Source: Pseudooceanicola sp. HF7 (lineage in GTDB: Bacteria > Pseudomonadota > Alphaproteobacteria > Rhodobacterales > Rhodobacteraceae). Taken from it: 35,937 nucleotides of DNA. The position numbers were made by a program, and so were the translations under genes. The DNA is taken from positions 1 to 35,937 of the forward strand of contig NZ_JAATOW010000043.1 in NCBI RefSeq assembly GCF_011806405.1. The letters run 5' to 3'. The notes below the pieces were generated by a model. The model did not search any database, had not been told where the DNA came from, and saw only the letters and a program-made list of their open reading frames with translations. This document shows, piece after piece, positions 7,503-28,208 of this stretch (position 1 is its first letter; each line of letters starts with the position of its first letter).

Positions 7503-8478
<976 letters not shown>

Positions 8479-8486
8479 GATCTATT

Positions 8487-9212
8487 TTAGCCACCCCGCA
8501 GAAGCCGCCGATACCGCGCTTGGCTGCCCTGCAGGTGGCGCCGCATCGCGTCACGCGCGGCATTGGCATCCGCGGCGGCGATGGCATCGGCAATGGCGCG
8601 ATGTTCCTCTGAAATCATGGAGATATAGCTGTCCGAACTGCGCTCTGCGCCTTCGCGCGGCAGGGTGGCGCGCGGAATGACCGCCAGGCCCATGACCTCA
8701 AGGAACTCCCGGAAGCGGGGATTGTTGGTGGCATCGGCCACCGCCAGGTGAAAGCGCAGGTCGGCGGCGGTGGTCGGCTTGCCCTCTTCGGCAAGCTGGC
8801 GCACCTCGGCTTCCGCTTCGTAGATCTGCTCTTCCTGCGCGGGGGAACGGCGGGCGGCGGCAAGCGCTGCGGCCTCCATTTCAACGGCGATCCGCAGCTC
8901 CAGCATCTCGACGATAGAGGAAATCCGCGCGGTATCGACGATCTGGAAGGGGCGGGGGGCAATGGGTGCGGGCTCCAGCACGAAGACGCCAGCGCCCTGG
9001 CGCGGCTGCACCAGCCCGTCGGCGCGCAGGGCGGCGATGGCTTCCCGAATCACCGTGCGAGAGACCGAGAATTCCTCGGTCAGCTTGGCCTCTGAGGGCA
9101 GGCGATCGCCTGGCGAGAACTCGTCGCTTTCGATCCGGCTGCGCAGCGTGTCGACCACATCGGCCACCAGATTGCCCCGCGGCGCTGCTCTGCTCTTTAT
9201 ATCATTTGCCAT
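8487..9212 (-). CDS. GntR/FadR-family (FCD) transcriptional regulator of the uronate genes
   Basis: This 241-residue regulator has an N-terminal GntR winged helix (residues about 15-80; PGDRLPSEAKLTEEFSVSR at 34-52, then VIREAIAAL). An FCD ligand-binding domain follows at about 100-230. The usual FCD metal ligands are visible: Asp151 and His155 (DLRFH), His204 (EEHRAI) and His226 (MRRHL). Metal-containing FCD domains commonly sense sugar acids or other carboxylates. It lies between the divergent dctPQM-udh and kdgD-gci-gli units, so it probably represses both and is released by a uronate or aldarate. It may be co-transcribed with kdgD or separated by the internal promoter at 8440-8478. Confidence 0.9.
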   Translation of the reverse strand: MANDIKSRAAPRGNLVADVVDTLRSRIESDEFSPGDRLPSEAKLTEEFSVSRTVIREAIAALRADGLVQPRQGAGVFVLEPAPIAPRPFQIVDTARISSIVEMLELRIAVEMEAAALAAARRSPAQEEQIYEAEAEVRQLAEEGKPTTAADLRFHLAVADATNNPRFREFLEVMGLAVIPRATLPREGAERSSDSYISMISEEHRAIADAIAAADANAARDAMRRHLQGSQARYRRLLRGG

Positions 9213-9289
9213 GGGCTGCTCCTGTGCTCAGAATAGATAAGAGGAATTTCAGCGCGATTGTCAAATCTGCCCCGAAGATATCAGACATG

Positions 9290-9319
9290 TTGACAAGTGA
9301 TAAGATGAATCCTCATAAG
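9290..9319 (+). promoter_or_regulatory. dctPQM promoter with regulator half-site
   Basis: A consensus -35 TTGACA (9290-9295) is followed after 18 bp by CATAAG (9314-9319) as a -10. ACAAGTGAT (9293-9301) is the same 9-mer found in the kdgD operator (ATCACTTGT on the plus strand at 8468-8476) and overlaps the -35 in both. A partial dyad ACATGT/ACAAGT surrounds it. Shared control by the adjacent GntR protein is inferred. Confidence 0.6.
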
Positions 9320-9367
9320 TGAGCCCGATGGCGGTGCAAATCGCCTCGGTTTCAAGGGAGGAACACC

Positions 9368-10342
9368 ATGAACTACAAACATACCGCAGTAACGGGCCTG
9401 CTGGCGGCGATGGTTGCAATGCCGGCGCTGGCAGAGGACTGGCGCGGCTGGAACATCCATCCGGAAGACTACCCGAACTCCATCGCGCTTGAGATGTTCG
9501 CAGAGCAGGTCGCCGAAGCCACCGAGGGCCGCGTGACCCCGCAGGTCTATCACAACGCCGTCCTGGGCGCGCAGCCCGACGCCATCGAACAGGTCCGCAA
9601 CGGCGGCCTGGATTTCGCGAACTTCAACATGGGCCCCATGGGCCAGATCGTGCCCGCCACGAACGTGCTGTCGCTGCCCTTCATCTTCAAGGACGTGGAC
9701 CACATGCACCGCGTCATGGACAACGAGATCGGCGAGCGCTTCTCCAAGGCGCTGTCCGAAGAGGGCCTGGTGGCGCTCAGCTGGTTCGACAGCGGCTCGC
9801 GCAGCTTCTACAACACCAAGAAGCCGATCATGTCCCCGGCCGATGTCGATGGCATGAAGTTCCGCGTCATGAACAACGACCTCTATGTCGACATGGTTGA
9901 CCAGCTGGGCGGCAACGCCACCCCGATGGCCTATTCCGAGGTGTACCAGTCGCTGAAAACCGGCGTCATCGACGGGGCAGAGAACAACTACCCCTCCTAT
10001 GACAGCTCGAACCACTTCGAGGTGGCGCCCTATTACTCCATCACCAACCACCTGATCATTCCCGAATGCATCTGCATCTCCACCGCAAGCTGGGAAGCGC
10101 TGAGCGCGGAAGACCAGGAAATGGTGAAACAGGCCGCCGTGGACGCCGCCGAAACCCAGCGTGAGCTTTGGGCAGAGCGCGAGATGGCCAGCCTGGAAAA
10201 GGTCAAGGCAGCCGGGTCCAAGATCAACGAGGTCGATGATCCCAAGGCCTTCCAGGATGCCATGGGCCCGGTCTACGCAGGCTTCCTTGCCGAAAACCCG
10301 GACCTGGAAGCGCTTGTCAAAGACATCCAGGCCACCGACTGA
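9368..10342 (+). CDS. dctP: TRAP transporter solute-binding protein DctP, probably for uronates
   Basis: This periplasmic binding protein delivers a sugar acid to the DctQM permease. It is 324 residues long with a signal peptide ending at about residue 22 (MPALA-ED). DctP-family signatures are present, including the carboxylate-binding Arg166 in GMKFRVMNN and the SEVYQSLKTGVIDGAENN segment near 189-206. The start has a strong GGGAGGA site. Its place in one transcription unit with udh and opposite kdgD/gci/gli points to D-galacturonate or D-glucuronate as ligand. A strong hairpin follows the gene, which would leave more dctP than dctQM message. Confidence 0.92.
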   Translation: MNYKHTAVTGLLAAMVAMPALAEDWRGWNIHPEDYPNSIALEMFAEQVAEATEGRVTPQVYHNAVLGAQPDAIEQVRNGGLDFANFNMGPMGQIVPATNVLSLPFIFKDVDHMHRVMDNEIGERFSKALSEEGLVALSWFDSGSRSFYNTKKPIMSPADVDGMKFRVMNNDLYVDMVDQLGGNATPMAYSEVYQSLKTGVIDGAENNYPSYDSSNHFEVAPYYSITNHLIIPECICISTASWEALSAEDQEMVKQAAVDAAETQRELWAEREMASLEKVKAAGSKINEVDDPKAFQDAMGPVYAGFLAENPDLEALVKDIQATD

Positions 10343-10358
10343 CCGGTAAGCTGACACC

Positions 10359-10391
10359 AAGCCCCGGCCCTCAAAAGGGGCCGGGGCTTTT
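10359..10391 (+). terminator. Intercistronic hairpin between dctP and dctQ
   Basis: A perfect 12-bp stem (10359-10370 with 10378-10389) with a 7-nt loop ends in TTTT. It reads as a partial intrinsic terminator or mRNA-stabilising hairpin, letting the binding protein be made in excess over the permease. Confidence 0.8.
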
Positions 10392-10437
10392 CATGCCGGG
10401 ACACCCGCGACGGACGACCGCGGAGAGGGATTTGAAG

Positions 10438-10947
10438 ATGACGGAAGAGACAGAGGACAAGGGGCAGGTCTACCGCGTTCTCGACCTGCTCTCGCGGGCG
10501 TGCATGATCGTCGCGGGGGTGCAACTTGTCGGCCTGATCGCGATCTTCGGCTGGCTGGTCTTCGGCCGCTACGTGCTGAACGACACGCCCACCTGGGTGG
10601 AACAGGCAGCCCTGCTGCTGGTGGTCTGGGTGACCTTCCTGGGCGGCGCGGCCGGGGTCTGGAACAAGGCCCACCTGTCCATGGATTTCGTGAGAGAGAT
10701 GATGCCGCCCCGGATCCGCATCCCGCTGCGCTGGCTGGCGGTGATCGGGGTGATCATCTTCGGCGGCTTCCTGGCCTGGCAGGGCTGGGAACTGGCGGAC
10801 AAGACCTGGCGGCGGCAAATCCCGATGTTGGGCATCGCAGAGGGCTGGCGTGCCATCCCCATGGCGATCTGCGGGGCGCTTTCCGTGCTCTTTTCCCTCT
10901 ACCACCTTGCCGCGCTTGCCCGTGGCGAAGACCCGATGGAGCGTTAA
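10438..10947 (+). CDS. dctQ: TRAP transporter small permease DctQ
   Basis: This is the small membrane subunit of the uronate TRAP transporter, 169 residues from the ATG at 10438, which has GAGAGGGA upstream. An in-frame ATG at 10393 lies just after the hairpin and lacks a ribosome-binding site. Four membrane segments are visible at roughly residues 17-38, 48-68, 90-110 and 135-155, with the family-typical WVEQAALLLVVWVTFLGGA stretch. It is followed directly by dctM with no gap. Confidence 0.9.
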   Translation: MTEETEDKGQVYRVLDLLSRACMIVAGVQLVGLIAIFGWLVFGRYVLNDTPTWVEQAALLLVVWVTFLGGAAGVWNKAHLSMDFVREMMPPRIRIPLRWLAVIGVIIFGGFLAWQGWELADKTWRRQIPMLGIAEGWRAIPMAICGALSVLFSLYHLAALARGEDPMER

Positions 10948-12225
10948 ATGGGCCTCGCAATTCTTTTCGGCCTCTTCTTCCTGGGCCTCCTGGCCGGCAT
11001 GCCGGTGGCCTTTGCCCTGGGCCTGGCGACGGTGGGCGGCTTCCTTTACGAAGGCCTGCCGCTTTTCATCGGGTTCCAGCGCATCCTGTCGGGGATCTCC
11101 GTCTTTTCGCTGCTGGCCATTCCCTTCTTCATCTTCGCCGGCGACCTGATGATGCAGGGCGGCATCGCGGCGCGGCTGGTGCGCCTGGCCGCCTCTGCGG
11201 TGGGGCGCTCGCGCGGCGGGCTGGGCGTGGTCAACGTGGCCTCTTCCATGCTCTTCGGCGGCATCTCCGGATCCGCCGTGGCCGATACCTCGGCGCTTGG
11301 CTCCATCCTGATGCCGGTGATGAAGGAAAAGGGCTATGACGCGGATTACGCCGTCAACGTGACCGTGACTTCCTCCGTGGCCGGGGTGGTGATCCCGCCC
11401 AGCCACAACATGATCCTCTACGCGGTGGCCGCCGGTGGCGTCTCGGTCTCGCAATTGTTCATCGCCGGGATCGTGCCGGGGCTGCTGATGTGCCTCTGCC
11501 TGGGCGTGGTCGCCTGGTACATCGCCGTGCGCCGCGGCTACCCGGCCGAGGAATTCCCCGGCTGGTCCGCCCTGATGGTCAGCTTCATCGTCGCCCTGCC
11601 GGGGCTGATGACGGCGGTGATCATCGTCGGCGGCGTGCTTTCCGGAGTGATGACGGTGACGGAATCCGGCGCCTTCGGGGCGATCTGGGCCCTTGTGGTG
11701 ACGATCTTCGTCTACCGCGAACTGTCCTGGCCGGGCTTCAAGCGCGCGGTCTTCGGCGCGGTGCGCACCACGGCGCTGGTCATGACGCTGGTGGCGACGG
11801 CTTCGGCCTTTGCCTATCTGCTGGCGCTTTACCGGGTGCCGGACAACCTGGCGACCTTCGTCACCACTATCTCGGACAATCCCATCGTCATCCTGCTGCT
11901 GCTGAACCTGACCCTGCTGATCCTGGGCATGATCATGGACATGGCCGCGCTGATCCTGATCTGCACGCCGATCTTCCTGCCGGTCGTCACCGGGCTGGGG
12001 ATGGACCCGGTGCAGTTCGGCGTGATCCTGATGATGAACCTGGGCCTTGGCCTGTGCACCCCGCCGGTGGGCGCCTGCCTGTTCGTGGGCTGTGTCGTCG
12101 GCGGTATCCGCATCGACCAGGCAGTCCGCACGATCTGGCCCTTTTACGGCGCCATCGTCGTGGCGCTGATGCTGGTGACCTACGTGCCGGCCTTCTCGAT
12201 GTACCTGCCGTCGCTGCTGCAGTAA
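10948..12225 (+). CDS. dctM: TRAP transporter large permease DctM
   Basis: This is the sodium-coupled transport subunit, 425 residues and the usual size, with about 12 hydrophobic segments. Family signatures include GMPVAFALG near the N-terminus, PFFIFAGDLM, the SSMLFGGISGSAVADTSALG loop, VVIPPSHNMILYAV and the C-terminal MNLGLGLCTPPVGACLFVG. The ATG follows the dctQ stop codon directly. It works with DctP and DctQ to import uronates. Confidence 0.93.
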   Translation: MGLAILFGLFFLGLLAGMPVAFALGLATVGGFLYEGLPLFIGFQRILSGISVFSLLAIPFFIFAGDLMMQGGIAARLVRLAASAVGRSRGGLGVVNVASSMLFGGISGSAVADTSALGSILMPVMKEKGYDADYAVNVTVTSSVAGVVIPPSHNMILYAVAAGGVSVSQLFIAGIVPGLLMCLCLGVVAWYIAVRRGYPAEEFPGWSALMVSFIVALPGLMTAVIIVGGVLSGVMTVTESGAFGAIWALVVTIFVYRELSWPGFKRAVFGAVRTTALVMTLVATASAFAYLLALYRVPDNLATFVTTISDNPIVILLLLNLTLLILGMIMDMAALILICTPIFLPVVTGLGMDPVQFGVILMMNLGLGLCTPPVGACLFVGCVVGGIRIDQAVRTIWPFYGAIVVALMLVTYVPAFSMYLPSLLQ

Positions 12226-12261
12226 CGCCAGCGGCGCACGATCCGAAGAATAGGAGTACCC

Positions 12262-13056
12262 ATGAAACGCTTGCTGATCACCGGCGCCGGCGGAAACCTT
12301 GGCAAACTGGCCCGCGCCCGGCTGGGCCACATGGCCGATATCCTGCGCCTCTCCGACATCGGAGAGATGGCCCCCGCCGCCGGCCCGCATGAGGAAGTCG
12401 TGCCCTGCGACCTGGGCGACGAAGCCGCGGTGATGGAGCTGGTCGCGGATTGCGATGCCATCCTGCACCTTGGCGGCGTCTCGGTGGAACGTCCCTGGAA
12501 GGACATCCAGAACGCCAATATCACCGGGGTCTACAACCTTTACGAAGCCGCGCGCGCCCATGGGATGCCGCGGATCTTCTTCGCCACCTCAAACCATACC
12601 ATCGGCTATTACACCCAGGACAAGGTCCTGACCGTGCAGGACCCGGTGAAACCGGATGGGCTTTACGGCGTGTCCAAGTGCTTCGGCGAAGCCATGGCCT
12701 CGCTCTACCATTCGAAATTCGGGCAGGAGACGGCGCTGATCCGTATCGGCTCCTGCTTCGAAAAGCCTGTGGACCGGCGCATGATGGCCACCTGGCTGAG
12801 CCCGGATGACTTCATCCGCCTGGTCGAATGCGTCTTCCGCGCGCCGATGCTGGGCTGCCCGGTGATCTGGGGTGTGTCGAACAACGACGAAGGCTGGTGG
12901 GATACCTCCACGGCGCGGCTGATCGGCTGGCGCCCGCAGGACAATTCGGAAACCTACCGGGCAGAGATCGAGGCGGCCCAGCCCTGTCCCCCCGCCGATG
13001 CGCCCGAAAGCCGCTACCAGGGCGGCAAGTTCACCGCCGAACCGATCCACAAGTAA
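12262..13056 (+). CDS. udh: NAD-dependent uronate dehydrogenase
   Basis: It oxidises D-galacturonate or D-glucuronate to the aldarolactone, the entry step to the pathway completed by gli, gci and kdgD. It is a 264-residue short-chain dehydrogenase. The NAD-binding GAGGNLG is at 8-14, followed by SSN-like ATSNHTIGYY (108-117) and the catalytic Tyr135/Lys139 in LYGVSK. From memory it is very similar along its length to Agrobacterium Atu3143 (including KFGQETALIRIGSC). AGGAG lies before the ATG, 36 bp after dctM, so it shares the transporter transcript. A long hairpin follows at 13082-13116. Confidence 0.93.
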   Translation: MKRLLITGAGGNLGKLARARLGHMADILRLSDIGEMAPAAGPHEEVVPCDLGDEAAVMELVADCDAILHLGGVSVERPWKDIQNANITGVYNLYEAARAHGMPRIFFATSNHTIGYYTQDKVLTVQDPVKPDGLYGVSKCFGEAMASLYHSKFGQETALIRIGSCFEKPVDRRMMATWLSPDDFIRLVECVFRAPMLGCPVIWGVSNNDEGWWDTSTARLIGWRPQDNSETYRAEIEAAQPCPPADAPESRYQGGKFTAEPIHK

Positions 13057-13621: not shown

Positions 13622-14014
13622 TCAGGGCAGGGCAGCCATCACTTCGACCTCCACCACGAATTCCTCCCGCGTGAAGCCGGAGACGATCATCAGGGTCGAT
13701 GCCGGCAGGTGCGACACCTGCGCCAGCCAGGCATCCCGCGCCGCCATGTAGCCGGCCATATGCGCGCGGCCCGTGACGAAGGCATTGATTCGCAAGACGT
13801 TTTCGCGGCTCGTCCCGGCCTCTTCCAGGATCGCGTCGACATTGGCGAAACACAGCGCCGCCTGGGCTTCGGCGCCCTCGGGCACCGTGCCATCGCTGGC
13901 AAGGGCCAGCTGGCCAGAGGTCAGCACGATGCCGTTTCCGCCCTCAAGCGCGACGCCATGGGCGTAACGGGCAAAGGGCGGGGCGATGGTCTGCGGGACA
14001 AGGCTGCGGATCAT
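13622..14014 (-). CDS. RidA/YjgF/RutC-family protein lacking the usual active-site Arg
   Basis: This 130-residue protein has the RidA length and fold markers (LTSGQLALASDGTVPEGAEAQ; NVDAILEEAGTSRENVLRINAFVT). RidA hydrolyses reactive enamines/imines and needs an Arg in a PAR(S/T) motif. Here the site reads LPASTLMIVSGF, with Ser in place of Arg, so imine deaminase activity is doubtful. The ATG at 14014 is chosen because AAGGA is 6 nt upstream; the ATG at 14020 would touch it. It is divergent from the ABC operon across 219 bp. RutC-like members also occur in pyrimidine catabolism, so it probably serves the neighbouring degradation genes. Confidence 0.85.
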   Translation of the reverse strand: MIRSLVPQTIAPPFARYAHGVALEGGNGIVLTSGQLALASDGTVPEGAEAQAALCFANVDAILEEAGTSRENVLRINAFVTGRAHMAGYMAARDAWLAQVSHLPASTLMIVSGFTREEFVVEVEVMAALP

Positions 14015-14233
14015 GATCATTCCTTTCTTCTGCTGTCTCTCTTTCGCAGGACAGCAGCACAGGGCCAAGCACGGCGCGCTGGCCCGGGGCGAAAAACGCC
14101 TGAAATCGGGCAGCAGGGCAGGGGGAATGCCCATTCCCTCACCGCTGCGGACCCTGGCGCTGCAACGGAGAAGAAGGGGCCTTGAACCCCCCGTTAAATC
14201 ATTCAAAAGACTAAAAAATCCAACCGGGAGACT

Positions 14234-15229
14234 ATGATGAAATCCTTGAAACTTACCGTCACCGCTGTGGCCCTGCTCTCTGCCGGGGCCGTCCAGGCCC
14301 AGGATCTGACCAAGGTCAGCTTCGGCACCAACTGGCTGGCCCAGGCCGAACACGGCGGCTTCTACCAGTCCGTCGCCGATGGCACCTATGCCGATTGCGG
14401 CCTGGACGTGACCATTGTTCCCGGCGGCCCGCAGGTGAACAACCGCGCGCTGATGCTGGCCGGCCGGATCGACTACCACATGGGGGGCGACCTGCTGCAG
14501 GCCTTCAACGCCGTGAAGGAAGGCGTGCCCGTCGTCTCTGTCGCCGCGACCTTCCAGAAGCACCCCCAGGTGATCATCGCCCACCCCGGCAAGGCCGAAA
14601 CCTTCGAGGATCTCAAGAACCTGACCCTGCTGATCGGCGACAACGGCTACCAGTCCTACTACCAGTGGATGATCCAGGCCTATGGCTTCACCGCCGAGCA
14701 GCGCGAGCCCTATACCTTCAACCCCGCCCCCTTCCTGGCGGATGACACCATGGGCATGCAAGGCTACCTGTCCTCTGAGCCCTATCTCATTGAAAAAGAA
14801 GGCGGCTTTGTCCCCGATGCCTTCCTGATCGCGGATGCGGGCTATTCCACCTACGCCACCACGATCGAGACAATGGCAGACACGATCGCCGAGAAGCCCG
14901 AGCAGGTGCAATGCTTCGTCGATGGCTCCATCAAGGGCTGGTACAACTTCCTGTACGGTGACAGCGCCGCCGCGCGCGAGATGATCATCGCCGACAACCC
15001 CGAGATGACCGAAGACAAGATCGACTTCGCGATCGAGAAGATGATCGCCGAGGGGATTGTCGATTCCGGTGACGCGGAAACCATGGGCATCGGCGCAATG
15101 ACCGAAGAGAAGGTCAGCGACTTCTACACCAAGATGGTGGATGCCGGCGTGATCGAGGACGACATCGACTGGAAGGCTGCCTTCACGACCCAGTTCGTGA
15201 ACCAGAAAGTCGGCATGGACCTGAAATAA
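14234..15229 (+). CDS. ABC transporter substrate-binding protein, NMT1/THI5 type
   Basis: This 331-residue protein has a signal peptide cleaved near residue 22 (AVQAQ). The family-typical start (VSFGTNWLAQAEHGGFYQSVADG) follows, then GLDVTIVPGGPQVNNRALMLAGRID and YLSSEPYLIEKEGG. Relatives bind thiamine-pyrimidine precursors, other N-heterocycles, or sulfonates and nitriles. The pocket cannot be read from sequence. GGGAG precedes the overlapping ATGATG start (14234 or 14237). It is the first gene of the operon, and a hairpin separates it from the ATPase gene. The deaminase and creatininase homologues downstream suggest a cyclic nitrogen compound as ligand. Confidence 0.88.
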   Translation: MMKSLKLTVTAVALLSAGAVQAQDLTKVSFGTNWLAQAEHGGFYQSVADGTYADCGLDVTIVPGGPQVNNRALMLAGRIDYHMGGDLLQAFNAVKEGVPVVSVAATFQKHPQVIIAHPGKAETFEDLKNLTLLIGDNGYQSYYQWMIQAYGFTAEQREPYTFNPAPFLADDTMGMQGYLSSEPYLIEKEGGFVPDAFLIADAGYSTYATTIETMADTIAEKPEQVQCFVDGSIKGWYNFLYGDSAAAREMIIADNPEMTEDKIDFAIEKMIAEGIVDSGDAETMGIGAMTEEKVSDFYTKMVDAGVIEDDIDWKAAFTTQFVNQKVGMDLK

Positions 15230-15242
15230 CTTAGTAAAATCG

Positions 15243-15262
15243 GGTGGGGGCTCCCCCCCACC
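15243..15262 (+). terminator. Intercistronic hairpin between binding protein and ATPase genes
   Basis: GGTGGGGG (15243-15250) pairs with CCCCCACC (15255-15262) around 4 nt. It sits just past the binding-protein stop, the same arrangement as after dctP, and probably sets a higher level for the binding protein. Confidence 0.6.
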
Positions 15263-15277
15263 TGATCGGAGACCGCT

Positions 15278-16063
15278 ATGTCACTCTCTCGCCCGCCGCT
15301 CGGCGAACGCTCGACGCTGCTACAGATGAACCACGTGGAAAAGACGTTTCGCGGGAACATCGTTGCGCTGAAGGATATGAACCTGACCGTGAACGAAGGG
15401 GATTTCATCTCTCTTCTCGGTCCCTCCGGCTGCGGCAAATCCACTGCGCTGCGCATCATTTCCGGGCTGATGCAGCCCACGGCCGGCCAGATCCGCTGGA
15501 CCGGCGGCCAGTCCAAGGACGACCTTGGCGTGGTCTTCCAGGAGCCCACGCTGATGCCCTGGGCGCGCGTGGTGGACAACGTCTGGCTGCCCTTCCGTCT
15601 GCGCGGGATCAGCTACAACGAGGTCAAGGACGAGGTGCTTCAGGCGCTCAAGCTGGTGGGCCTTGAGAAGTTCCAGCGCGCCTTCCCGCGTGAGCTTTCC
15701 GGCGGCATGAAGATGCGCGTCGCCATCGCCCGCGCCATGGTCACCAAACCGCGGCTTATCCTGATGGACGAACCCTTTGCCGCGCTGGATGAAATCACCC
15801 GCCACAAGCTGAACCAGGACCTGCTGGCCCTGCGCGAAGCCATTGGCTGCACAGTGATTTTCGTTACCCACTCGGTCTTCGAATCCGTCTTCCTGTCCGA
15901 TCGCATCGTGGTCATGGCTGCGCGCCCCGGCCGCGTGATCCGCCAGCTGGAAGTGGATGCGGCCTATCCCCGGACAGAGGAATTCCGCACCTCTGCCGAA
16001 TATGCCGCCCATTGCCGCGAAGCCTCGGACGCCCTGCATCAAGCCATCGGAGAAGCGGCATGA
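15278..16063 (+). CDS. ABC transporter ATPase, nitrate/sulfonate/pyrimidine class
   Basis: This cytoplasmic energy subunit is 261 residues long. Walker A GPSGCGKST begins at 48, the Q-loop is VVFQEPTLMPW (Gln88), the signature is LSGGMKMRVAIARA at 140, Walker B LILMDEP is at 160-166, and the H-loop is VTHS. The MPW after the Q-loop is typical of the SsuB/TauB/ThiZ class. Its last codon overlaps the permease start (ATGA at 16060), indicating translational coupling. Confidence 0.93.
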   Translation: MSLSRPPLGERSTLLQMNHVEKTFRGNIVALKDMNLTVNEGDFISLLGPSGCGKSTALRIISGLMQPTAGQIRWTGGQSKDDLGVVFQEPTLMPWARVVDNVWLPFRLRGISYNEVKDEVLQALKLVGLEKFQRAFPRELSGGMKMRVAIARAMVTKPRLILMDEPFAALDEITRHKLNQDLLALREAIGCTVIFVTHSVFESVFLSDRIVVMAARPGRVIRQLEVDAAYPRTEEFRTSAEYAAHCREASDALHQAIGEAA

Positions 16064-16914
16064 GCATCACGGACACAGGTACCGAAACCCCGCTTGTCGA
16101 CCAGGAGGAACTGGATCGCGCCCGGCGCGAGAAGATCATGCGCATGGCGCGCTGGCTGCTGCCGTCGCTGGTGCTGATCCTGTCGGTCCTGGCCTGGCAT
16201 CTTTACGTGACCATCGCGGAAGTGCCCCATTACATCCTGCCCGGGCCCGGCCTTGTGGCGCAGAAGATGGTAGAGGATTGGCCGCTGCTCTGGCCGGCCA
16301 TGGTGATCACCGGACGGCTGACCCTTCTGGCCCTGCTGATGGCGGTCGCCGGGGGCGTCGTGCTGGCCGTGGCCTTCACCCAGTCGAAATGGGCAGAGAT
16401 GTCCTTCTTCCCCTATGCGGTCATCCTTCAGGTGACGCCGGTCGTGGCCATCGCGCCGCTGCTGCAGATCTACATCGACAACGCCTTCATGGCCGCGCTG
16501 CTCTGTGCCTGGATCGTGGCCTTCTTCCCGATCCTGTCCAACACGACCATCGGGCTGAAATCGGCGGACCATAACCTTGAGGATCTCTTCTCCATCTACG
16601 GGGCGACGCGCTGGCAGAAGCTGCGTTACCTCTATGCGCCGACCGCGCTGCCCTTTTTCCTGGGCGGTCTCAAGATCGCCGGCGGGCTGGCGCTGATCGG
16701 CGCCGTGGTGGCCGAGTTCGTCATCGGCCGTGCCGGCACCGGCCTTGGCCTTGCCTCGACCCTGCTCGAGGCCTCCTATCGCTTCAACTTCGGGCGTCTC
16801 TATGCGGCGCTCATCCTGATCTCTGTCATGGGCGTGGTGATCTTCGCGCTCATGTCCACGATCAGCTACCTCGCGCTCTTCCGCTGGCATGAAAGCGCGC
16901 TCAAACGGGAATGA
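16060..16914 (+). CDS. ABC transporter permease
   Basis: This 284-residue inner-membrane subunit has about six hydrophobic segments and the SsuC/TauC-type EAA loop (SADHNLEDLFSIYGATRWQKL, near residues 167-187). The start at 16060 is chosen for its ATGA overlap with the ATPase stop; an in-frame ATG at 16012 would overlap the ATPase gene by about 50 bp. Its stop overlaps the next gene by the same ATGA device. Confidence 0.92.
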   Translation: MSITDTGTETPLVDQEELDRARREKIMRMARWLLPSLVLILSVLAWHLYVTIAEVPHYILPGPGLVAQKMVEDWPLLWPAMVITGRLTLLALLMAVAGGVVLAVAFTQSKWAEMSFFPYAVILQVTPVVAIAPLLQIYIDNAFMAALLCAWIVAFFPILSNTTIGLKSADHNLEDLFSIYGATRWQKLRYLYAPTALPFFLGGLKIAGGLALIGAVVAEFVIGRAGTGLGLASTLLEASYRFNFGRLYAALILISVMGVVIFALMSTISYLALFRWHESALKRE

Positions 16915-18179
16915 CCATGGACTTCAAGACCTTGCCGGAGGGGGACTTCACCCTTCGGAACGTGACCGTGCCTGCCTGCCTGCTGGGGCAGGAGGGCGGC
17001 CTTATCCGCAAAGACATCGGGATCGCCGGGGGCCGCATTGCCGCGCCGGCGGGCCAGGACGTGGAGATGGGCGGCGCGATGCTGCTGCCGCTCTTCACCG
17101 ACATGCACACGCACCTCGACAAGGGGCATATCTGGCCGCGCGCTTCCAACCCGGACGGTACGTTCGACGGGGCGCTCAGAACCGTGCGCGCCGATCACGC
17201 CAACTGGGAACCCGAGGACGTGCGCGCCCGCATGTCCTTTGCCATCCGCAGCGCCTATGCCCATGGCACCGCACGGATCCGCACCCATGTCGATTCCGTC
17301 GACGGGCAATACCTGCGCACCTTCCCGGTCTTCCAGGAGCTGCGCGAGGAATGGGCCGGCCGCGTGGATCTTCAGGCTTCCAGCCTGATTTCCTGCGACC
17401 GGATCGACCCGAACGGAGAGTTCGGCGATGTCGTCCGCGTGGTGACAGAGGCCGGCGCGACACTGGGCATGGTCACCTACCCGATCCCGGAGCTGAAGCA
17501 GGCCCTGCTGACCTTCTTCGAGATGGCCGGCAAGGCCGGACTGAACGTGGATTTCCATACGGACGAGACGATGGATCCCACCTCGGAAACGCTGCGGATG
17601 ATCGCGGAAACGGTGCTGGAAACCGGGTTCGAGGGCTCCGTCGTGGTGGGGCACTGCTGCTCTGTCTCGACGCAATCTGTCGACCGGGCGATGGACACGC
17701 TGGACCTGGTGGCCAAGGCTGGGTTGAACCCCGTGTCGCTGCCCATGTGCAACCTCTTCCTGCAGGATCGCCACGCCGGGCGCACCCCGCGCAACCGCGG
17801 CGTCACGCTGGTGCATGAGATGAAGGCGCGCGGCATCAACGTCAGCTTCGCGTCGGACAACACCCGCGATCCCTTCTATGCCTACGGCGATCTCGACATG
17901 GTCGAGGTCCTGCGAGAGGCGACCCGGATCGCACACCTGGACCATTCGGACCCGGACTGGATCCGGTCCTTCATCACCAACCCGGCCACGGCCTGCGGCT
18001 GGGAGGCCCCCTCCCTTGCCACGGGCGCGCCCGCCGATCTTCTTCTGTTCCGCGCTCGCGAATGGACCGAGTTCTTCGCCCGTCCGCAAGCGGACCGCAT
18101 CGTTCTGCGCCAGGGGCGTGCCATCGACCGCACGCTGCCCGATTACGCGGAACTTGACCACCTGATGAGGCTCTCATGA
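16911..18179 (+). CDS. CodA-like amidohydrolase/deaminase
   Basis: This 422-residue cytosine-deaminase-like amidohydrolase is probably cytosolic, as there is no signal peptide. The metal and catalytic residues of the CodA group can be placed: His66 and His68 (MHTHLDKGH), His216 and Glu219 (DFHTDE), His248 (VVVGHC) and Asp316 (FASDNTRDPF). Relatives deaminate cytosine, isoguanine, creatinine and similar rings, or open cyclic amides. The substrate cannot be set from sequence alone. It overlaps both neighbours by ATGA (16911 and 18176), so it is produced with the permease and the FAD oxidase. Being the first enzyme after the transporter, it probably carries out an early step on the imported compound. 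Confidence 0.87.
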   Translation: MTMDFKTLPEGDFTLRNVTVPACLLGQEGGLIRKDIGIAGGRIAAPAGQDVEMGGAMLLPLFTDMHTHLDKGHIWPRASNPDGTFDGALRTVRADHANWEPEDVRARMSFAIRSAYAHGTARIRTHVDSVDGQYLRTFPVFQELREEWAGRVDLQASSLISCDRIDPNGEFGDVVRVVTEAGATLGMVTYPIPELKQALLTFFEMAGKAGLNVDFHTDETMDPTSETLRMIAETVLETGFEGSVVVGHCCSVSTQSVDRAMDTLDLVAKAGLNPVSLPMCNLFLQDRHAGRTPRNRGVTLVHEMKARGINVSFASDNTRDPFYAYGDLDMVEVLREATRIAHLDHSDPDWIRSFITNPATACGWEAPSLATGAPADLLLFRAREWTEFFARPQADRIVLRQGRAIDRTLPDYAELDHLMRLS

Positions 18180-19579
18180 CTGCCAATATCGAGGCCGCAA
18201 AGGCCGCCCTTTCCCACCTGGATCTCGAAACCCGCGACCAGGGCATCAAGGCTGCCAGCCGCGATTTCTTCTGGTACTCGCCGGTGCTCAAGGATCGCCT
18301 GGAAGGGGTCAGCGCCGATTTCGTCGTCCGCCCCCGCTCGGAAGCCGAGGTGATCGAGATCCTCAAGACCTGTTTCGAGCATGACGTGCCGGTCACCACC
18401 CGCGGCGCGGGCACCGGCAACTACGGCCAGGCCATGCCGCTTGCCGGCGGCTGCGTCATGCATCTGCGCAACATGGACAAGGTGAAAGAGGTTACACCGG
18501 GCCGCGTCGTGGTTGAGCCGGGCTGCGTGCTCAAGGACCTGGACGCCCACTGCAAGGAGCATTCGGGCCAGGAGCTGCGCATGTTCTCCTCCACCTGGGA
18601 AACCGCGACCATCGGCGGCTTCGTCGCCGGGGGCTCGGGCGGCGTCGGCTCCGTCACTTGGGGCGCGCTGCGCGACCTGGGCAACATCATCCGCCTGCGC
18701 GTCGTCACCATGGAGGCAGAGCCCCGCGTGCTGGAGTTCCGTGGCGAGGAGCTGGCCCGTGTCAGCCACGCCTATGGCACCAACGGCATCATCACGGAGA
18801 TCGAGATGCCGCTGGCCCCGGCCTATGACTGGACCGATGTCTTCGTCGCCATGGATGACTTCAAGGAGGCCATGGAATTCGCCGATGAGCTGGCCAATGA
18901 AGACGGCATCCTGATCAAGCTGGCCTCTGTCTACGAAGCGCCCATCGCCCACAGCTACTTCCAGCGGGTGAAACCCTTCGTCAGCGAAGACAGCAACTTG
19001 ATCGGCCTGATGGTTGCGCCCCATTCGATGGAAGGCTTCCTGACCTTCCTCGCGCGGCGTCCGAAGGCCAAGATGATCTACCGCAGTGATGATCACGACT
19101 GGCCCCGCCGCCCGGGCAAGATCTTTGAATATGGCTGGAACCACACCACGCTGCGGGCGCTCAAGGTCGATCCGGAGATCACCTACCTGCAGGTGCGCTA
19201 CGCCTTCCCCGACCATATCGAACTGGTCGAGAAGATCCGCGCCATGTTCCCCACGGAAGAGGTCATGCAGCACCTCGAAGTGCTGAAGAACGGCGGCAAG
19301 GTGGGCTTTGCCGGGCTGACCCTGGTGCGCTTCACCACCGAAGAGCGGCTGGATGAGATCGTGCGCCTGCACGAGGAAGCCGGCGCGCTGATCTTCAACC
19401 CGCATCGCTACACGCTGGAAGAAGGCGGGCGGCAGATGACCGATGCCACCCAGCTGAACTTCAAGCGCGAAGCCGATCCCAAGGGGCTGCTCAACCCGGG
19501 CAAGATGATCTCCTGGGATGATCCGGATTACGCCTACGACAAGATGTATGCCTATCCCGGTCTCAAGGCAGAGGCATGA
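18176..19579 (+). CDS. FAD-linked oxidase (VAO/PCMH family)
   Basis: This 467-residue flavoenzyme resembles glycolate/D-lactate dehydrogenases (GlcD). The PCMH FAD-binding domain spans about residues 45-225 and includes DFVVRPRSEAEVIEIL, the TRGAGTGNYGQ pyrophosphate loop and TIGGFVAGGSGGVGSVTWG. The substrate-binding cap follows, and the C-terminus ends in the usual DPKGLLNPGKM. No signal peptide or iron-sulfur motif is seen. It probably oxidises a hydroxy acid or another C-H/C-N bond in an intermediate of this pathway. The electron acceptor may involve the two flavodoxin-fold proteins encoded next. The start overlaps the amidohydrolase stop. Confidence 0.88.
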   Translation: MTANIEAAKAALSHLDLETRDQGIKAASRDFFWYSPVLKDRLEGVSADFVVRPRSEAEVIEILKTCFEHDVPVTTRGAGTGNYGQAMPLAGGCVMHLRNMDKVKEVTPGRVVVEPGCVLKDLDAHCKEHSGQELRMFSSTWETATIGGFVAGGSGGVGSVTWGALRDLGNIIRLRVVTMEAEPRVLEFRGEELARVSHAYGTNGIITEIEMPLAPAYDWTDVFVAMDDFKEAMEFADELANEDGILIKLASVYEAPIAHSYFQRVKPFVSEDSNLIGLMVAPHSMEGFLTFLARRPKAKMIYRSDDHDWPRRPGKIFEYGWNHTTLRALKVDPEITYLQVRYAFPDHIELVEKIRAMFPTEEVMQHLEVLKNGGKVGFAGLTLVRFTTEERLDEIVRLHEEAGALIFNPHRYTLEEGGRQMTDATQLNFKREADPKGLLNPGKMISWDDPDYAYDKMYAYPGLKAEA

Positions 19580-19583
19580 GCGC

Positions 19584-20162
19584 ATGAAAGCCCTGGTTAT
19601 CTTTGCCCACCCGGTCCCGGAAAGCTATTCGGCGTCGCTTCACAAGAAGGTCGTCGAAACGCTGGAAGGGCGCGGCTGGGAGGTCGACGATTGGGACCTG
19701 AACGCCGAAGGCTTCGACCCGGTGCTGAGCTGCGAGGAACGCCGCAACTACCACGAGGACGGCCCGCACCGCGATCCGCTGCAACCCTATATCGACCGGA
19801 TCATGAAGGCCGAGGCGCTGGTGCTGGTCTTCCCGGTCTGGAACTTCGGCTTCCCGGCGATCCTGAAGGGCGTCTTCGACCGGATCTTCCTGCCCGGCGT
19901 CTCCTTCCGGATCGAGGACGGCTTCGTGAAGCCGAACCTGACCCACATCAAGAAGCTGGCGGCGGTCACCACCTACGGCGGCACCCGCTGGCGGGCCCTT
20001 GGCGCGGGCGATCCGCCCCGCAAGATCGTCAAGCGCGCGGTCTGGCACGTGACCCGGCCCGACACGATGAAGTACCTTGCGCTCTATGACATGAACCGCA
20101 ACAGCCCCGAGACGCTCAAGGCCTTCATCGACAAGGTCGGCCGCGAGATGGAGAGCTTCTGA
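19584..20162 (+). CDS. NAD(P)H:quinone reductase-like flavodoxin-fold protein 1
   Basis: This 192-residue Flavodoxin_2 (MdaB/KefF-like) protein begins KALVIFAHPVPESYSASLH, the FMN/FAD-binding start of the family. VLVFPVWNFGFPAILKGVFDRIF and AAVTTYGG follow, the other two flavin-contacting loops. It probably transfers two electrons from NAD(P)H to a quinone or redox partner. The ATG at 19584 lies 4 bp after the FAD-oxidase stop. A paralogue follows directly, so the pair may form a heterodimer; the family is usually dimeric. Confidence 0.87.
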   Translation: MKALVIFAHPVPESYSASLHKKVVETLEGRGWEVDDWDLNAEGFDPVLSCEERRNYHEDGPHRDPLQPYIDRIMKAEALVLVFPVWNFGFPAILKGVFDRIFLPGVSFRIEDGFVKPNLTHIKKLAAVTTYGGTRWRALGAGDPPRKIVKRAVWHVTRPDTMKYLALYDMNRNSPETLKAFIDKVGREMESF

Positions 20163-20789
20163 ATGCGGGCCCTCGTCGTCTATTGCCATCCGCGTCCTGA
20201 CAGCTTCACCGGCGCGATCCGCGATCTGGTCATGTCCCGGCTGGCAGGGGCGGGGGCAGAGCTGCGCCAGATCGACCTTTACGCCGAAGGCTTCGACCCG
20301 GTGATGTCGGGGGCTGAGAACGCCGCCTACCTGGACTGCTCCATCGGTACCGATCACATGGCCGCGCATGTCGACGCCCTTGGCTGGTGCGATACGCTGA
20401 TCTTCATCTACCCGACCTGGTGGTACGGGCTTCCGGCCATGCTGAAGGGCTGGCTGGACCGGGCGCTACTGCCCGGCTCCGCCTTCCTCATGCCAGAGGA
20501 GGAGGGCGGCGACATCAATCCCGGCCTGACCCATATCCGGCGGCTCGCGGTCTTCACGACCTGCGGCGCCAGCTGGTGGCTGACCCGCCTGGTCGGCGCG
20601 CCCGGCCGCCGCACGATCCTGCGGGGCCTGCGCATCCTTTGCGCCAAGCGCTGCCGGACCGCCTATGCTGCCCATTACCTGATGGACAGCTCCACCCCCG
20701 AAAGCCGCGCGAAACACCTGTCACGGGTGAACCGCAAGCTTGACCGTTTCCTTGGCCGCCGCGCCAAGCCCCGGCAGGCCCAGGCCTGA
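20163..20789 (+). CDS. NAD(P)H:quinone reductase-like flavodoxin-fold protein 2
   Basis: This 208-residue protein is a paralogue of the preceding one. It shares RALVVYCHPRPDSFTGAI, LYAEGFDPVMS, IFIYPTWWYGLPAMLKGWLDR and the AVFTTCGAS loop. It is longer and ends in a basic tail. The ATG directly follows the stop of the first copy with no gap. Divergence between the two is considerable, arguing against a recent duplication and for separate subunits or substrates. Confidence 0.87.
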   Translation: MRALVVYCHPRPDSFTGAIRDLVMSRLAGAGAELRQIDLYAEGFDPVMSGAENAAYLDCSIGTDHMAAHVDALGWCDTLIFIYPTWWYGLPAMLKGWLDRALLPGSAFLMPEEEGGDINPGLTHIRRLAVFTTCGASWWLTRLVGAPGRRTILRGLRILCAKRCRTAYAAHYLMDSSTPESRAKHLSRVNRKLDRFLGRRAKPRQAQA

Positions 20790-20810
20790 CCGCAATCCCC
20801 GGAGAAGACC

Positions 20811-21599
20811 ATGACTCGCCGTAACTGGTACGAATACCGCGCCCCTGAATTCAAGGCCGTGGACCCCGAACGCGCCATCGCCATCCTGCCCACGGCAGCA
20901 GTGGAACAGCACGGGCCGCACCTGCCCGTGGGCACCGACACGATGATCGCCGAAGGCATGCTGAACGTGCTGCAGGAGACCTGCCCCGATGACCTGGATA
21001 TCCGGGTGCTGCCGATCATGGCCGTGGGCAAGTCGAACGAACACCTCTGGGCAGAGGGCACGCTGACGCTGACCGCCGAAACCGCCCTGCGCGCCTGGAC
21101 GGAAATCGGCCTGTCCGCCGCCCGAGCCGGCTACCGCAAGATCGTCATCGCCAACAGCCATGGCGGCAACCTGGATCTGATCTCCATCCTGTCGCGCGAG
21201 CTGCGGGTAGAGGCCGGGATGCTGGCGGTGAAATGCCAGTGGGGCAACTTCGGCTACCCAGAAGGCATGTACACCGATCACGAGCGCAAGTACGGCATCC
21301 ACGGCGGGGATGTCGAAACCTCTCTCATGCTGGCCTTCCGGCCCGATTGCGTGGACATGAGCCAGGCGCAGAACTTCGTCTCAAGTGCCGAAACCGCGCC
21401 GATCCCGCCGGTGGGGCCGATCAGCCAGGCCTGGATCGCGGCGGATCTGTCCGATGACGGGACCGTGGGCGATGCCTCCATCGCCACCGTGGAAAAGGGC
21501 CGCGCCACGGCCGATCACCAGGTGGCCGGCTTCATCGAGATGCTGCGCACCATCCGCGACCTGCCGCTGCCCACCAAGAAGGCCAAGATCGAGCTCTAG
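20811..21599 (+). CDS. Creatininase-family amidohydrolase
   Basis: This 262-residue protein has the length of creatininase (PF02633). Metal ligands are visible as Glu32 and His34 (VEQHGPHLPVGTD, with Asp43), His117 (ANSHGGN) and Glu169 (GIHGGDVETS). Family members hydrolyse cyclic or linear amides such as creatinine or formamidopyrimidine intermediates. Together with a CodA-like deaminase this would allow stepwise opening of a nitrogen heterocycle. It is the last gene of the operon, 21 bp after the second flavodoxin gene, with GGAGAAG upstream. Its stop codon is part of a terminator-like hairpin shared with the convergent gene. Confidence 0.88.
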   Translation: MTRRNWYEYRAPEFKAVDPERAIAILPTAAVEQHGPHLPVGTDTMIAEGMLNVLQETCPDDLDIRVLPIMAVGKSNEHLWAEGTLTLTAETALRAWTEIGLSAARAGYRKIVIANSHGGNLDLISILSRELRVEAGMLAVKCQWGNFGYPEGMYTDHERKYGIHGGDVETSLMLAFRPDCVDMSQAQNFVSSAETAPIPPVGPISQAWIAADLSDDGTVGDASIATVEKGRATADHQVAGFIEMLRTIRDLPLPTKKAKIEL

Positions 21600-25090: not shown

Positions 25091-27040
25091 ATGGCATCTC
25101 CCGCCCGGCTGCGCAGGCTGCTTTTGGGCAGCGTGGCGTTGGCCATTCCCCATACCGCTTTCGCACAATCTCAAGAAACGACCCTTGCGCCGATCCTCAT
25201 TGAATCCGACCGCGAGGTGCAGACGCAGACCGCGGTCCCGGTGACCGTGATCGATCAGGAAGAAATCGACGCGCGGCAGGCGACCACCACCGCAGAGCTG
25301 CTGGATTCCGTGCCCGGCGTGACGCTGGTCAATGGCACCACCCCCGGCGGATCCGCGATCAACATCCGCGGCATGGGCGCCCAGTCCGGGACCTACGGCA
25401 GCGACCAGACCGTGCAGATCCTGGTCGACGGCGCCAGCACCGGCGCAGAGGAACTGTACCGGATCGGCACCCAGCTTTACACCGACCCGGCGCTTTACAA
25501 GCAGGCGGAAGTGATCCGCGGCTCTGTCGGGACCTTCGAATATGGCTCTGGCGTGATTGGCGGCATGGTCCGCTTCGAGACCAAGGATGCCTCTGACTTC
25601 ACCGGCGGAGAGAACGGTTTCGCGGGCCGCCAGTACCTTGGCTTCAATTCCAACGGGAACGGCTTCGTCTCTTCCTCTTCCCTTGCCTGGCAGCCGAACG
25701 AAGCCTTTGAACTGCTGTTCAACTACACCTGGCGGACGCAGGACGAATACAAGGACGGCAACGGCGAGACGGTGGAAAACACCAATTTCACGACGCCCTC
25801 CTACCTTGCCAAGGGCAAGCTGTATTTCGGCGAAGATCAGCAGCATTCCCTCTCCCTGAGCTACGCGGATACGCAGAGCTCTGAAAAGGACGTGCCCTAC
25901 GACCAGTTCGGCACGACGAACATCGGCAACGTGGACCGGGACATTCATTCCCGCACCGCCGTGCTGTCCTACAAGTTCGACTCGCTGGACAATGACCTGG
26001 TCAATGTCGACGTGACGCTGAGCCGGGCCCAGCAGAAGATCGATCAGCAAAGCTCTACCGGGAATCCGATGGCGCTGCTGAACGCGGATCAGGATTACGT
26101 CACCACCAAGCTGACCGCCAAGAACACGATGGAATTCATGACCGGCGGGGTGGATCACAACCTGCGTGCGGGCGTGGAATACATGCTGCGCGACCGGCTG
26201 GATGCCTCTTCCGCGCCGGGCGGGGATGACAAGCGCTACGCCATCTTCCTTGTCGATGACATGCGCCTGGGCGGTTTCACCTTCTCTCCGGCGCTGCGGT
26301 ACGAAGACCAGAATATCGACGGCACGGAATACGGCTACGGGACCTATCACAACGACGCGCTGATGGGCGGTGCCTCGCTTCGGTACCAGTGGGCCAGCGG
26401 TTTCGCGGTCTTCGGGTCCTGGTCCTACACGGAGGGTCTGCCGATCCTGGATGACCTGACCAACGCGGCCTACATGACCCTGTCCCAGAAGGCAAAAACC
26501 TGGGAGCTGGGCCTGTCCTACGGTTCGCGCGATGTCTTCGCCGCCGGGGACCGCCTTGCGCTGAAGGTGAACGCCTACCACACGGATATCTGGGACGTGA
26601 CCGCCTATAGCAGAGTCACCGATGTCACGACCGAGGGCGTGGAGATCGAGGGATCCTACTCCGCCGCGTCCGGCCATTACGTCGACCTGAACGCCAGCTT
26701 CGCCAAAGGCTATAACCGCACGCCCGGGGCCGCCAACGACTTCTGGGAACAGCAGCCTGCCAACCAGGTGCGGCTGGGCCTTGGCCAGCGCATGGACAAC
26801 GGGCTGGACGTGAAGTGGGAAAGCGTCTGGAACGCCGAGATGGACCGCAGCACCAACCCGACGCCGGGGACCCTGCTGCACAATGTCTCCGTCGGCTACG
26901 CCCCCCGGAGTGGTGTCCTGGAAGGGGTCGAGACGCGCTTTTCCGTCGAGAACCTGATGGACGAATTCTACGAGCCCCACCTGGCCACGCGGCCCGCGCC
27001 GGGCCGGACCTTCAAGGTCTCCCTCGCCAAGTCCTTCTGA
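25091..27040 (+). CDS. TonB-dependent outer-membrane receptor
   Basis: This 649-residue gated beta-barrel has a signal peptide of about 25 residues (AFAQ). A plug domain spans about 45-165 (VTVIDQEEIDARQATTTAELLDS; AINIRGMGAQSG; VIRGSVGTFEYGSGVIGG). A TonB-dependent barrel follows and ends in the assembly signal VSLAKSF with terminal Phe. Barrel features such as the RFSVENLMDEFYEPHLATRPAPGR stretch near the end resemble haem/siderophore receptors, but the ligand is not set. It heads a cluster of redox proteins, so it probably takes up a metal or metal chelate reduced in the periplasm. AGGA is 7 nt before the ATG. Confidence 0.9.
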   Translation: MASPARLRRLLLGSVALAIPHTAFAQSQETTLAPILIESDREVQTQTAVPVTVIDQEEIDARQATTTAELLDSVPGVTLVNGTTPGGSAINIRGMGAQSGTYGSDQTVQILVDGASTGAEELYRIGTQLYTDPALYKQAEVIRGSVGTFEYGSGVIGGMVRFETKDASDFTGGENGFAGRQYLGFNSNGNGFVSSSSLAWQPNEAFELLFNYTWRTQDEYKDGNGETVENTNFTTPSYLAKGKLYFGEDQQHSLSLSYADTQSSEKDVPYDQFGTTNIGNVDRDIHSRTAVLSYKFDSLDNDLVNVDVTLSRAQQKIDQQSSTGNPMALLNADQDYVTTKLTAKNTMEFMTGGVDHNLRAGVEYMLRDRLDASSAPGGDDKRYAIFLVDDMRLGGFTFSPALRYEDQNIDGTEYGYGTYHNDALMGGASLRYQWASGFAVFGSWSYTEGLPILDDLTNAAYMTLSQKAKTWELGLSYGSRDVFAAGDRLALKVNAYHTDIWDVTAYSRVTDVTTEGVEIEGSYSAASGHYVDLNASFAKGYNRTPGAANDFWEQQPANQVRLGLGQRMDNGLDVKWESVWNAEMDRSTNPTPGTLLHNVSVGYAPRSGVLEGVETRFSVENLMDEFYEPHLATRPAPGRTFKVSLAKSF

Positions 27041-27112
27041 GACCGACGACCCCAAGGCGGGGCCCGGTGGTCCCGCCCTTACCCCTGAACCCTGACGCAG
27101 AGAGATGACGCC

Positions 27113-27670
27113 ATGCGCAACAGATTGATCCCGCTCGCCCTTGTTCCTCTGGCCCTTGCCGGGCTTGCACCGCTGCCCGCCCTGGCCCAGCAGGCCGAGA
27201 CCGAAACCGAGGAGTCCCGCCCGGCGCCCGGCGTGGCCGGGGGGCACCGCAAGGATGCCTTCATCGCCGCCCATGACACCGATGGCGACGGCCAGGTCAC
27301 CCGCGCGGAATACGACGCCATCCGCAAGGCGCGCTTCGAGGGCGCCGACCTGGACGGGGACGGCGTGCTGAACGAAGAGGAATACGTGGCCGAGTTCAAG
27401 GGCCGCCTGGACCAGCAATATGCCGACCAGGGTCTTGAGCCGGACGAGCGCTACGAGGGCTCCATGGAACAGGCCCATGTCCGTTTCGCCATCGTCGACC
27501 GCAGCCGCGACGGGAAACTGACCTGGGAAGAGCAGCAGGCCGTGGCGGATTCGACCTTCAAGGGCCATGACACGGACGAGAACGATATCGTCAACGCCGA
27601 TGATCCCCTTCCCGTGGAGGAAGACGAGGAGGAGGGGTCCGAGGATGCCTCCGGGGATGAGCAGGGCTGA
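27113..27670 (+). CDS. Secreted EF-hand protein
   Basis: This 185-residue protein has a signal peptide (about 1-25, ALAQ). It carries four EF-hand-like loops: DTDGDGQVTRAE (55-66) and DLDGDGVLNEEE (79-90) are canonical, DRSRDGKLTWEE (129-140) is acceptable, and DTDENDIVNADD (153-164) is degenerate, lacking the position-6 Gly and final Glu. The C-terminus is highly acidic. It probably binds Ca2+ or another hard metal ion in the periplasm. The loops lack the Pro at position 2 typical of lanmodulin. It lies 72 bp after the TonB receptor in the same direction. Confidence 0.85.
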   Translation: MRNRLIPLALVPLALAGLAPLPALAQQAETETEESRPAPGVAGGHRKDAFIAAHDTDGDGQVTRAEYDAIRKARFEGADLDGDGVLNEEEYVAEFKGRLDQQYADQGLEPDERYEGSMEQAHVRFAIVDRSRDGKLTWEEQQAVADSTFKGHDTDENDIVNADDPLPVEEDEEEGSEDASGDEQG

Positions 27671-27674
27671 TCCG

Positions 27675-28208
27675 ATGAGCCTGTCGCGCAACCTTCTGCC
27701 GGCCCTCGGGGGCGGGCTTCTGGTCACGGGGGGCCTGGCCTCCGGGGCCGGCGCGGGCGAGGTCCGGGTCAGCGTGACGCTGCCCCGGATCGATGCCGCG
27801 CCCTATTACCGCCCCTACCTGGCCGCCTGGGTCGAGACGCCAGAGGGCGATCCGGCGGCTACGCTGGCCGTCTGGTACGACACCCGGCTGCGCGACAACA
27901 TCGGCACCGGCTTCCTGCGCAACCTGCGCAGCTGGTGGCGCGCGACCGGAGAAGAGATGACCCTGCCCGCCGATGGCGTCAGCGGTCCGACCCGCGGCCC
28001 GGGCACCTATGATCTGGCTTTCGATACCGAGACCGGCCCGCTGGCCGGACTGGCCCCGGGCCCCTACCGCCTGGCCGTCGAAGTCGCCCGCGAGGATGGC
28101 GGGCGGGACCTGGTGCGCCTGCCGCTGGATCTGACCGGGGACGCCTCGGAAGAAACGGGCGAGGGCGCGGAAGAGCTGGGCCGCGTCACCCTGGCCGTGG
28201 AGCCCTGA
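27675..28208 (+). CDS. DUF2271 periplasmic protein
   Basis: This 177-residue protein has an N-terminal signal-like segment (about 1-27, GAGAGE). A DUF2271-type domain follows: VSVTLPRIDAAPYYRPYLAAWVE, AVWYDTRLRDNIGTGFLRNLRSWWR and LVRLPLDL near the end. DUF2271 genes occur with PepSY and ApbE genes in predicted envelope flavin-dependent redox systems; their molecular role is not established. The start at 27675 is 4 bp after the EF-hand stop, so the genes are co-transcribed. Confidence 0.8.
   Translation: MSLSRNLLPALGGGLLVTGGLASGAGAGEVRVSVTLPRIDAAPYYRPYLAAWVETPEGDPAATLAVWYDTRLRDNIGTGFLRNLRSWWRATGEEMTLPADGVSGPTRGPGTYDLAFDTETGPLAGLAPGPYRLAVEVAREDGGRDLVRLPLDLTGDASEETGEGAEELGRVTLAVEP

Follow-up and report, generated by a model that had tools for sequence, protein, structure and literature searches.

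We found that a cassette of nine genes, at positions 13622 to 21599 of contig NZ_JAATOW010000043.1 from Pseudooceanicola sp. HF7 (35,937 nucleotides; this whole stretch is called the window here), is most likely an operon for the catabolism of folate or pteridines, carried on a plasmid of about 35.9 kb. We favor this reading because the flavin adenine dinucleotide (FAD) enzyme of the cassette matches a flavin oxygenase deposited in the PDB as 6v42, and because the nearest relatives of 6v42 are encoded in the same cassette. The constituents of the cassette are as follows.

13622-14014, minus strand: Rid-family protein (PF01042, E=1e-19), divergent from the operon
14015-14233, no strand: 219-bp gap separating the Rid gene from the transporter operon, a likely control region
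14234-15229, plus strand: NMT1/THI5-type substrate-binding protein (PF09084, E=8e-18), first gene of the operon
15278-16063, plus strand: ATPase of an ATP-binding cassette (ABC) transporter (PF00005, E=4e-34)
16060-16914, plus strand: ABC transporter permease (PF00528, E=6e-22), with a 4-bp overlap on each side
16911-18179, plus strand: CodA-like amidohydrolase of 422 amino acids (NCBIfam PRK07583; NF005759, 571 bits against a cut-off of 403)
18176-19579, plus strand: FAD_binding_4 flavoprotein (PF01565, E=7e-28), homolog of PDB 6v42
19584-20162, plus strand: NAD(P)H-dependent flavodoxin-fold reductase 1 (Flavodoxin_2, PF02525, E=1e-29)
20163-20789, plus strand: NAD(P)H-dependent flavodoxin-fold reductase 2 (Flavodoxin_2, PF02525, E=3e-28)
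20811-21599, plus strand: creatininase-family metallohydrolase (PF02633, E=4e-66)

Pfam searches recovered all nine genes in the places and families that a first-pass annotation, made from the letters of the sequence, had given them. The 4-bp stop/start overlaps by which it had linked the ATPase, permease, deaminase and FAD genes were likewise seen, at 16060-16063, 16911-16914 and 18176-18179. Downstream, the genes are separated by 4 bp (FAD gene and reductase 1), 0 bp (reductases 1 and 2) and 21 bp (reductase 2 and the creatininase-like gene). The cassette has no regulator gene of its own, and a consensus scan of 14015-14233 returned no promoter-like match. For the substrate-binding protein, the sole PDB match at E<=0.001 was 4nmy (E=4e-5).

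The FAD enzyme and the relatives of 6v42

The best PDB match of the FAD enzyme was 6v42 (E=1e-170), which aligns with it over residues 4-465 of both proteins at 57% identity and carries the title 'Crystal structure of the flavin oxygenase with cofactor bound involved in folate catabolism'. This title was found by a structure search that used a predicted model of poor quality (mean predicted local distance difference test score of 46, from a four-sequence alignment); the model served for looking up the title only, and the relationship to 6v42 is taken from the sequence match. The FAD enzyme is thus a homolog of a flavin oxygenase deposited as folate-catabolic, and it would be expected to oxygenate a folate-derived substrate.

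We searched for the 6v42 sequence in 398 genomes of the phylum. The eight best matches, at 73-75% identity, came from two genera of one family, and all nine gene families of the window's cassette were present at each of these places and at a ninth with 67% identity (L112-L118, L136 and L137). These nine, among 17 places with at least 64% identity to 6v42, have the nine families in a layout like that of the window. Since the gene families are shared, the window's cassette is, as judged by gene content, of the same kind as those of 6v42's nearest relatives. Among the closest known systems is 6v42, together with PDB 6v43: the FAD enzyme is homologous to 6v42 over the full length, and the eight relatives found nearest to 6v42 all have this nine-gene cassette around them, whereas the activity of the window's enzyme is a prediction.

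The first-pass annotation had called the cassette possibly undescribed and could match it to no known route. The Rut, cytosine and creatinine readings do fail the tests of residues and gene content given below, but the lack of any described match was not supported, and 'undescribed' holds only in part: the kind of system is known from 6v42, whose deposition already covers a flavin enzyme with a role in folate catabolism, while most of the further steps are predicted. We met no account of the whole cassette in the open-licence PubMed Central (PMC) literature, a scope outside which most subscription journals lie; on folate and pterins that literature gave one relevant paper, PMC9513972.

Conservation of the cassette as a unit

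To follow the cassette among relatives we used a sample of 244 Rhodobacterales genomes; here, as in the 6v42 search, the number of first-look candidates scored in each genome was limited. The FAD protein was found at 63% identity or more in 40 places in 39 of the genomes, the window included. Every one of the 40 deaminase matches (E<=1e-100) lay within 200 bp of a FAD gene, and uniform placement would put a deaminase this close to a FAD match about 0.0007 times per genome, so that the adjacency cannot be put down to chance. Seen from the other side, a deaminase adjoins 39 of the 40 FAD places and a creatininase-like gene is present at 34. Creatininase-like matches (E<=1e-60) fell within 5 kb of a FAD gene in 38 of 40 cases, and the other two were not near one. 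That these genes travel together, as the first-pass annotation had supposed, was borne out by this neighborhood search.

We then mapped the 39 orthologous loci other than the window, accepting matches of at least 40% identity within 9 kb. Transporter genes were matched in most loci (substrate-binding protein in 38, ATPase in 39, permease in 38), as were those of the enzymes (deaminase 38, reductase 1 36, reductase 2 38, creatininase-like protein 33, Rid protein 30). All nine families are held by 25 of the loci; nine loci have no Rid gene, six have no creatininase-like gene, and one (L078) has no match other than an ATPase beside its FAD gene. The exact gene order of the window recurs in nine loci, and 13 more differ by one inserted gene only. 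An extra 2-oxoglutarate (2OG)-Fe(II) oxygenase gene is present in 21 of the 39; the window is without one, and the best match elsewhere in its genome is 47% identical. Across 42 loci and the window, the divergence of seven partner proteins, compared as distance matrices, correlates with that of the FAD enzyme (r 0.60-0.87), a correlation that 0 of 1000 permutations reached and part of which species descent alone could give. An unbiased clustering of neighboring genes yielded, in its 30 largest groups, mostly within-genus synteny and overlapping reading frames; no folate-specific enzyme was recognized in these groups, on which no family searches were run.

Wider distribution and diverged cassettes

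Named plasmids of Pseudooceanicola, Palleronia, Paroceanicella, Sulfitobacter and Rhizobium likewise carry the cassette, which is maintained as a unit across marine and soil bacteria. Its Rhizobium form has a single reductase and a LysR gene; homologs of the FAD enzyme were found in 109 Rhizobium plasmid records, and the neighborhood was viewed in three rhizobial plasmids. Cassettes of a wider kind are present on plasmids of Pantoea, Rahnella, Klebsiella and Comamonadaceae, the last with the same gene families and one reductase. On a Haematobacter plasmid we found transporter, FAD, deaminase and Fer2 genes, and matched no creatininase-like or Rid gene.

For a more distant set we fetched 21 of 26 places with weaker FAD matches (L088-L108, FAD protein 34-50% identical). 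A deaminase was retained in 20, a creatininase-like protein in 19 and a Rid protein in 16, while the other genes change. Some of these cassettes have an SBP_bac_5 protein and a TauD-like 2OG-Fe(II) oxygenase beside the core, and the electron partners vary among flavodoxin-fold proteins, PDR/VanB proteins with Fer2, and a separate Fer2 protein. Such variation is what one would predict for an oxygenase that receives its electrons from a reductase.

Several further genes were noted around these cassettes and their relatives. Genes of the xanthine dehydrogenase type, whose enzymes can hydroxylate pteridines, adjoin the cassette on Rhizobium pRL12 (L011, 1893-5689) and one distant cassette (L093). 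A large FAD oxidoreductase recurs near the cassette at the rhizobial loci L112-L118, L136 and L137 and at one roseobacter locus, L083; its start appears to resemble dimethylglycine and sarcosine dehydrogenases, which we take to be a folate-linked class. On the atrazine plasmid pADP-1, an amidohydrolase (L140, 6491-7822) that is 44% identical to the deaminase of the Pantoea cassette clusters with a BMP-type ABC transporter.

Active-site residues of the partner proteins

We next compared the partner proteins at the active-site positions of their namesakes. Residue counts cover 46 roseobacter-type, 20 rhizobial-type and 22 distant loci, with loci that have no copy of a gene dropping out for that gene and 17 mapped loci left out (L042, L046, L088-L090, L093, L094, L097, L099, L101, L104, L126, L127, L129, L132, L134 and L135); the tables give the four commonest residues per group. 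In the deaminases, CodA residues H61, H63, H214, E217, H246 and D313, presumably the metal and catalytic residues, are retained in 87/87 proteins. The residues that we take to be specific for cytosine are changed: D314 is N and W319 is F in 87/87, and Q156 is not Q among the 83 rows listed. The window's deaminase has S161, N317 and F322 at Q156, D314 and W319, respectively. A similar pattern was seen in the creatininase-like proteins, where the presumed metal and active residues E34, H36, H120 and H178 are kept in 76/76 and D45 in 75/76, whereas E122 is G in 76/76 and W174 is not W among the 72 rows listed (G119 and Y161 in the window). The NCBIfam creatininase equivalog model gave 80.7 bits against a cut-off of 235.

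The catalytic arginine of Rid proteins is serine in all 73 aligned cassette members (S98 of the stretch translated from 13990 in the window), and the RutC model scored 20 bits against a cut-off of 169. According to the sections of PMC4433059 consulted, changing this arginine in RidA almost abolishes imine hydrolysis, and the residue is kept by RidA and Rid1 to Rid3, while imine hydrolysis seems to be lacking in Rid4 to Rid7. Because of these active-site changes, the names cytosine deaminase, creatininase and RidA are, on sequence grounds, not to be taken literally.

A proposed pathway for pteridine catabolism

The identities of the genes, their conservation as a unit and the homology of the FAD enzyme to a folate-catabolic flavin oxygenase are given by sequence comparison; from these we infer the substrates of the other enzymes, the order of the steps and the products. 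The NMT1-type ABC transporter would import a folate-derived pteridine, from which the CodA-like enzyme would strip the 2-amino group, giving a lumazine-type compound from a pterin. Drawing electrons from the two NAD(P)H reductases, the FAD enzyme would then oxygenate the deaminated pteridine. The arginine-less Rid protein may hydrolyse a resulting imine or enamine without an amino-acid carboxylate, and the creatininase-like metallohydrolase would open a ring lactam. The first-pass annotation had proposed that uptake, deamination, flavin-dependent oxidation and ring opening of a nitrogen heterocycle form one pathway, and both the gene families and their joint travel agree with this.

A documented folate deamination is that of Variovorax sp. 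F1, for which the consulted parts of PMC9513972 describe a folate/pteroate deaminase of 399 amino acids together with carboxypeptidase G and, in V. paradoxus, a Rid-type gene annotated as 'endoribonuclease' downstream of the corresponding deaminase genes. The Pantoea cassette, in which a deaminase of 399 amino acids is followed by a Rid gene, matches this in layout and length; the window differs in its deaminase of 422 amino acids and in the absence of carboxypeptidase G from the cassette. The text of PMC9513972 mentions neither oxygenase nor creatinin.

The Rut pathway offers a likeness of another kind, combining an oxygenase, a flavin reductase, a Rid protein, an amide hydrolase and a transporter; unlike it, the window has other families of oxygenase and hydrolase, an added deaminase and a Rid protein without the arginine. 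EncM, presumably of the same flavoprotein superfamily as the window's FAD enzyme, is also an FAD-containing oxygenation enzyme. Flavin-N5-oxygen chemistry is described for RutA, with flavin mononucleotide, and for EncM, with FAD as a flavin N5-oxide, in the consulted part of PMC7662398, where the words folate and pterin were not found. By analogy such chemistry might serve as a model for the window's enzyme, which is a guess.

Several points weigh against folate or a pteridine as the substrate. The link to folate is a single PDB title written by the depositors, and an enzyme 57% identical to 6v42 could act on a different pteridine or on some other heterocycle. Neither carboxypeptidase G nor aminobenzoyl-glutamate hydrolase is among the nine genes, which include no folate-specific gene, and any link to the pterin deaminases of Variovorax F1 and Arad3529 is presumptive. 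Among the other eight 6v42-like places (64-67% identity), seven are without one or more families, mostly one reductase (L119, L120, L121, L123, L124, L125 and L138), and L122 has all nine in a rearranged order with a second FAD gene. The loss of the Rid arginine weakens the proposed imine hydrolysis, and members of the wider family probably act on differing substrates, given the other transporters and oxygenases of the distant cassettes.

More tentatively, and with slightly less than even confidence, we speculate that environmental pteridine-ring breakdown has its missing genetic basis in this cassette. Here the deaminase, the FAD oxygenase, an arginine-less Rid protein acting on a non-amino-acid imine and a lactam opener of the creatininase fold would make up a single route through which roseobacters, rhizobia and further proteobacteria might use folate debris as a source of nitrogen and carbon. 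In the consulted parts of PMC9513972, environmental degradation of folic acid is not fully worked out, and the further breakdown of pteroate and deaminated pteroate is left open. If this reading is right, the compact cassette supplies candidate genes for each step, including the arginine-less Rid and creatininase-like enzymes, and corrects the automatic labels 'cytosine deaminase' and 'creatininase' on its genes.

Alternative substrates

The strongest competing explanation, which we consider unlikely though far from negligible, is that the cassette acts on another nitrogen heterocycle (a cyclic guanidine, a hydantoin, a modified pyrimidine or a purine oxidation product) and that 6v42, though related, works on a different substrate. 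The divergence of the FAD enzyme from 6v42 leaves room for such a change, transporters and oxygenases differ in the cassettes whose FAD identity is 34-50%, and a deaminase relative adjoins a transporter on pADP-1; however, the window and the loci nearest 6v42 share all nine gene families, and the partner proteins diverge in parallel with the FAD enzyme.

A Rut-like or cytosine-feeding pyrimidine pathway is very improbable. Its logic of flavin oxygenase, reductase, Rid protein, hydrolase and transporter resembles that of the cassette, and NCBIfam names the deaminase 'cytosine deaminase', but we rejected it on the changed CodA substrate residues, the failure of the RutC model and the absence, by Pfam, of a luciferase-like RutA and an isochorismatase-like RutB among the nine genes. 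Least probable of all is a creatinine or N-methylhydantoin pathway, which would account for the creatininase-family gene found by Pfam and was rejected on the changes at E122 and W174 and the unmet NCBIfam cut-off.

The plasmid and its other genes

The first 77 bp of the window are repeated exactly at its end (1-77 and 35861-35937). In the region 1144-5077 it also encodes ParA, a ParB-like protein just under the Pfam cut-off, and a relative of replication initiators with 58% identity to a segment of Pseudooceanicola algae p202 that is annotated as a replication initiation protein. Together these features make it probable that the window represents one entire circular plasmid of about 35.86 kb, in line with the mention of a plasmid in the first-pass annotation. 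The nearest DNA in the plasmid collection was p202 itself, at 82.7% identity over 90% of 8.2 kb.

A set of genes for sugar acids occupies 5497-13056, with Amidohydro_2, enolase-superfamily and DHDPS-family proteins, a GntR/FCD regulator, a DctP-DctQ-DctM transporter and an NAD epimerase-family dehydrogenase. A similar set flanks the cassette on p202, without DctPQM in the stretch shown. At 25091-31105, a TonB plug-domain receptor, a DUF2271 protein, an ApbE flavinyltransferase and a flavodoxin-type reductase are encoded in a row and may form a flavin-based set for iron or electron transfer. Finally, 32984-35638 encodes a membrane protein of the lysylphosphatidylglycerol synthase type, both Pfam parts of which lie on the plasmid.

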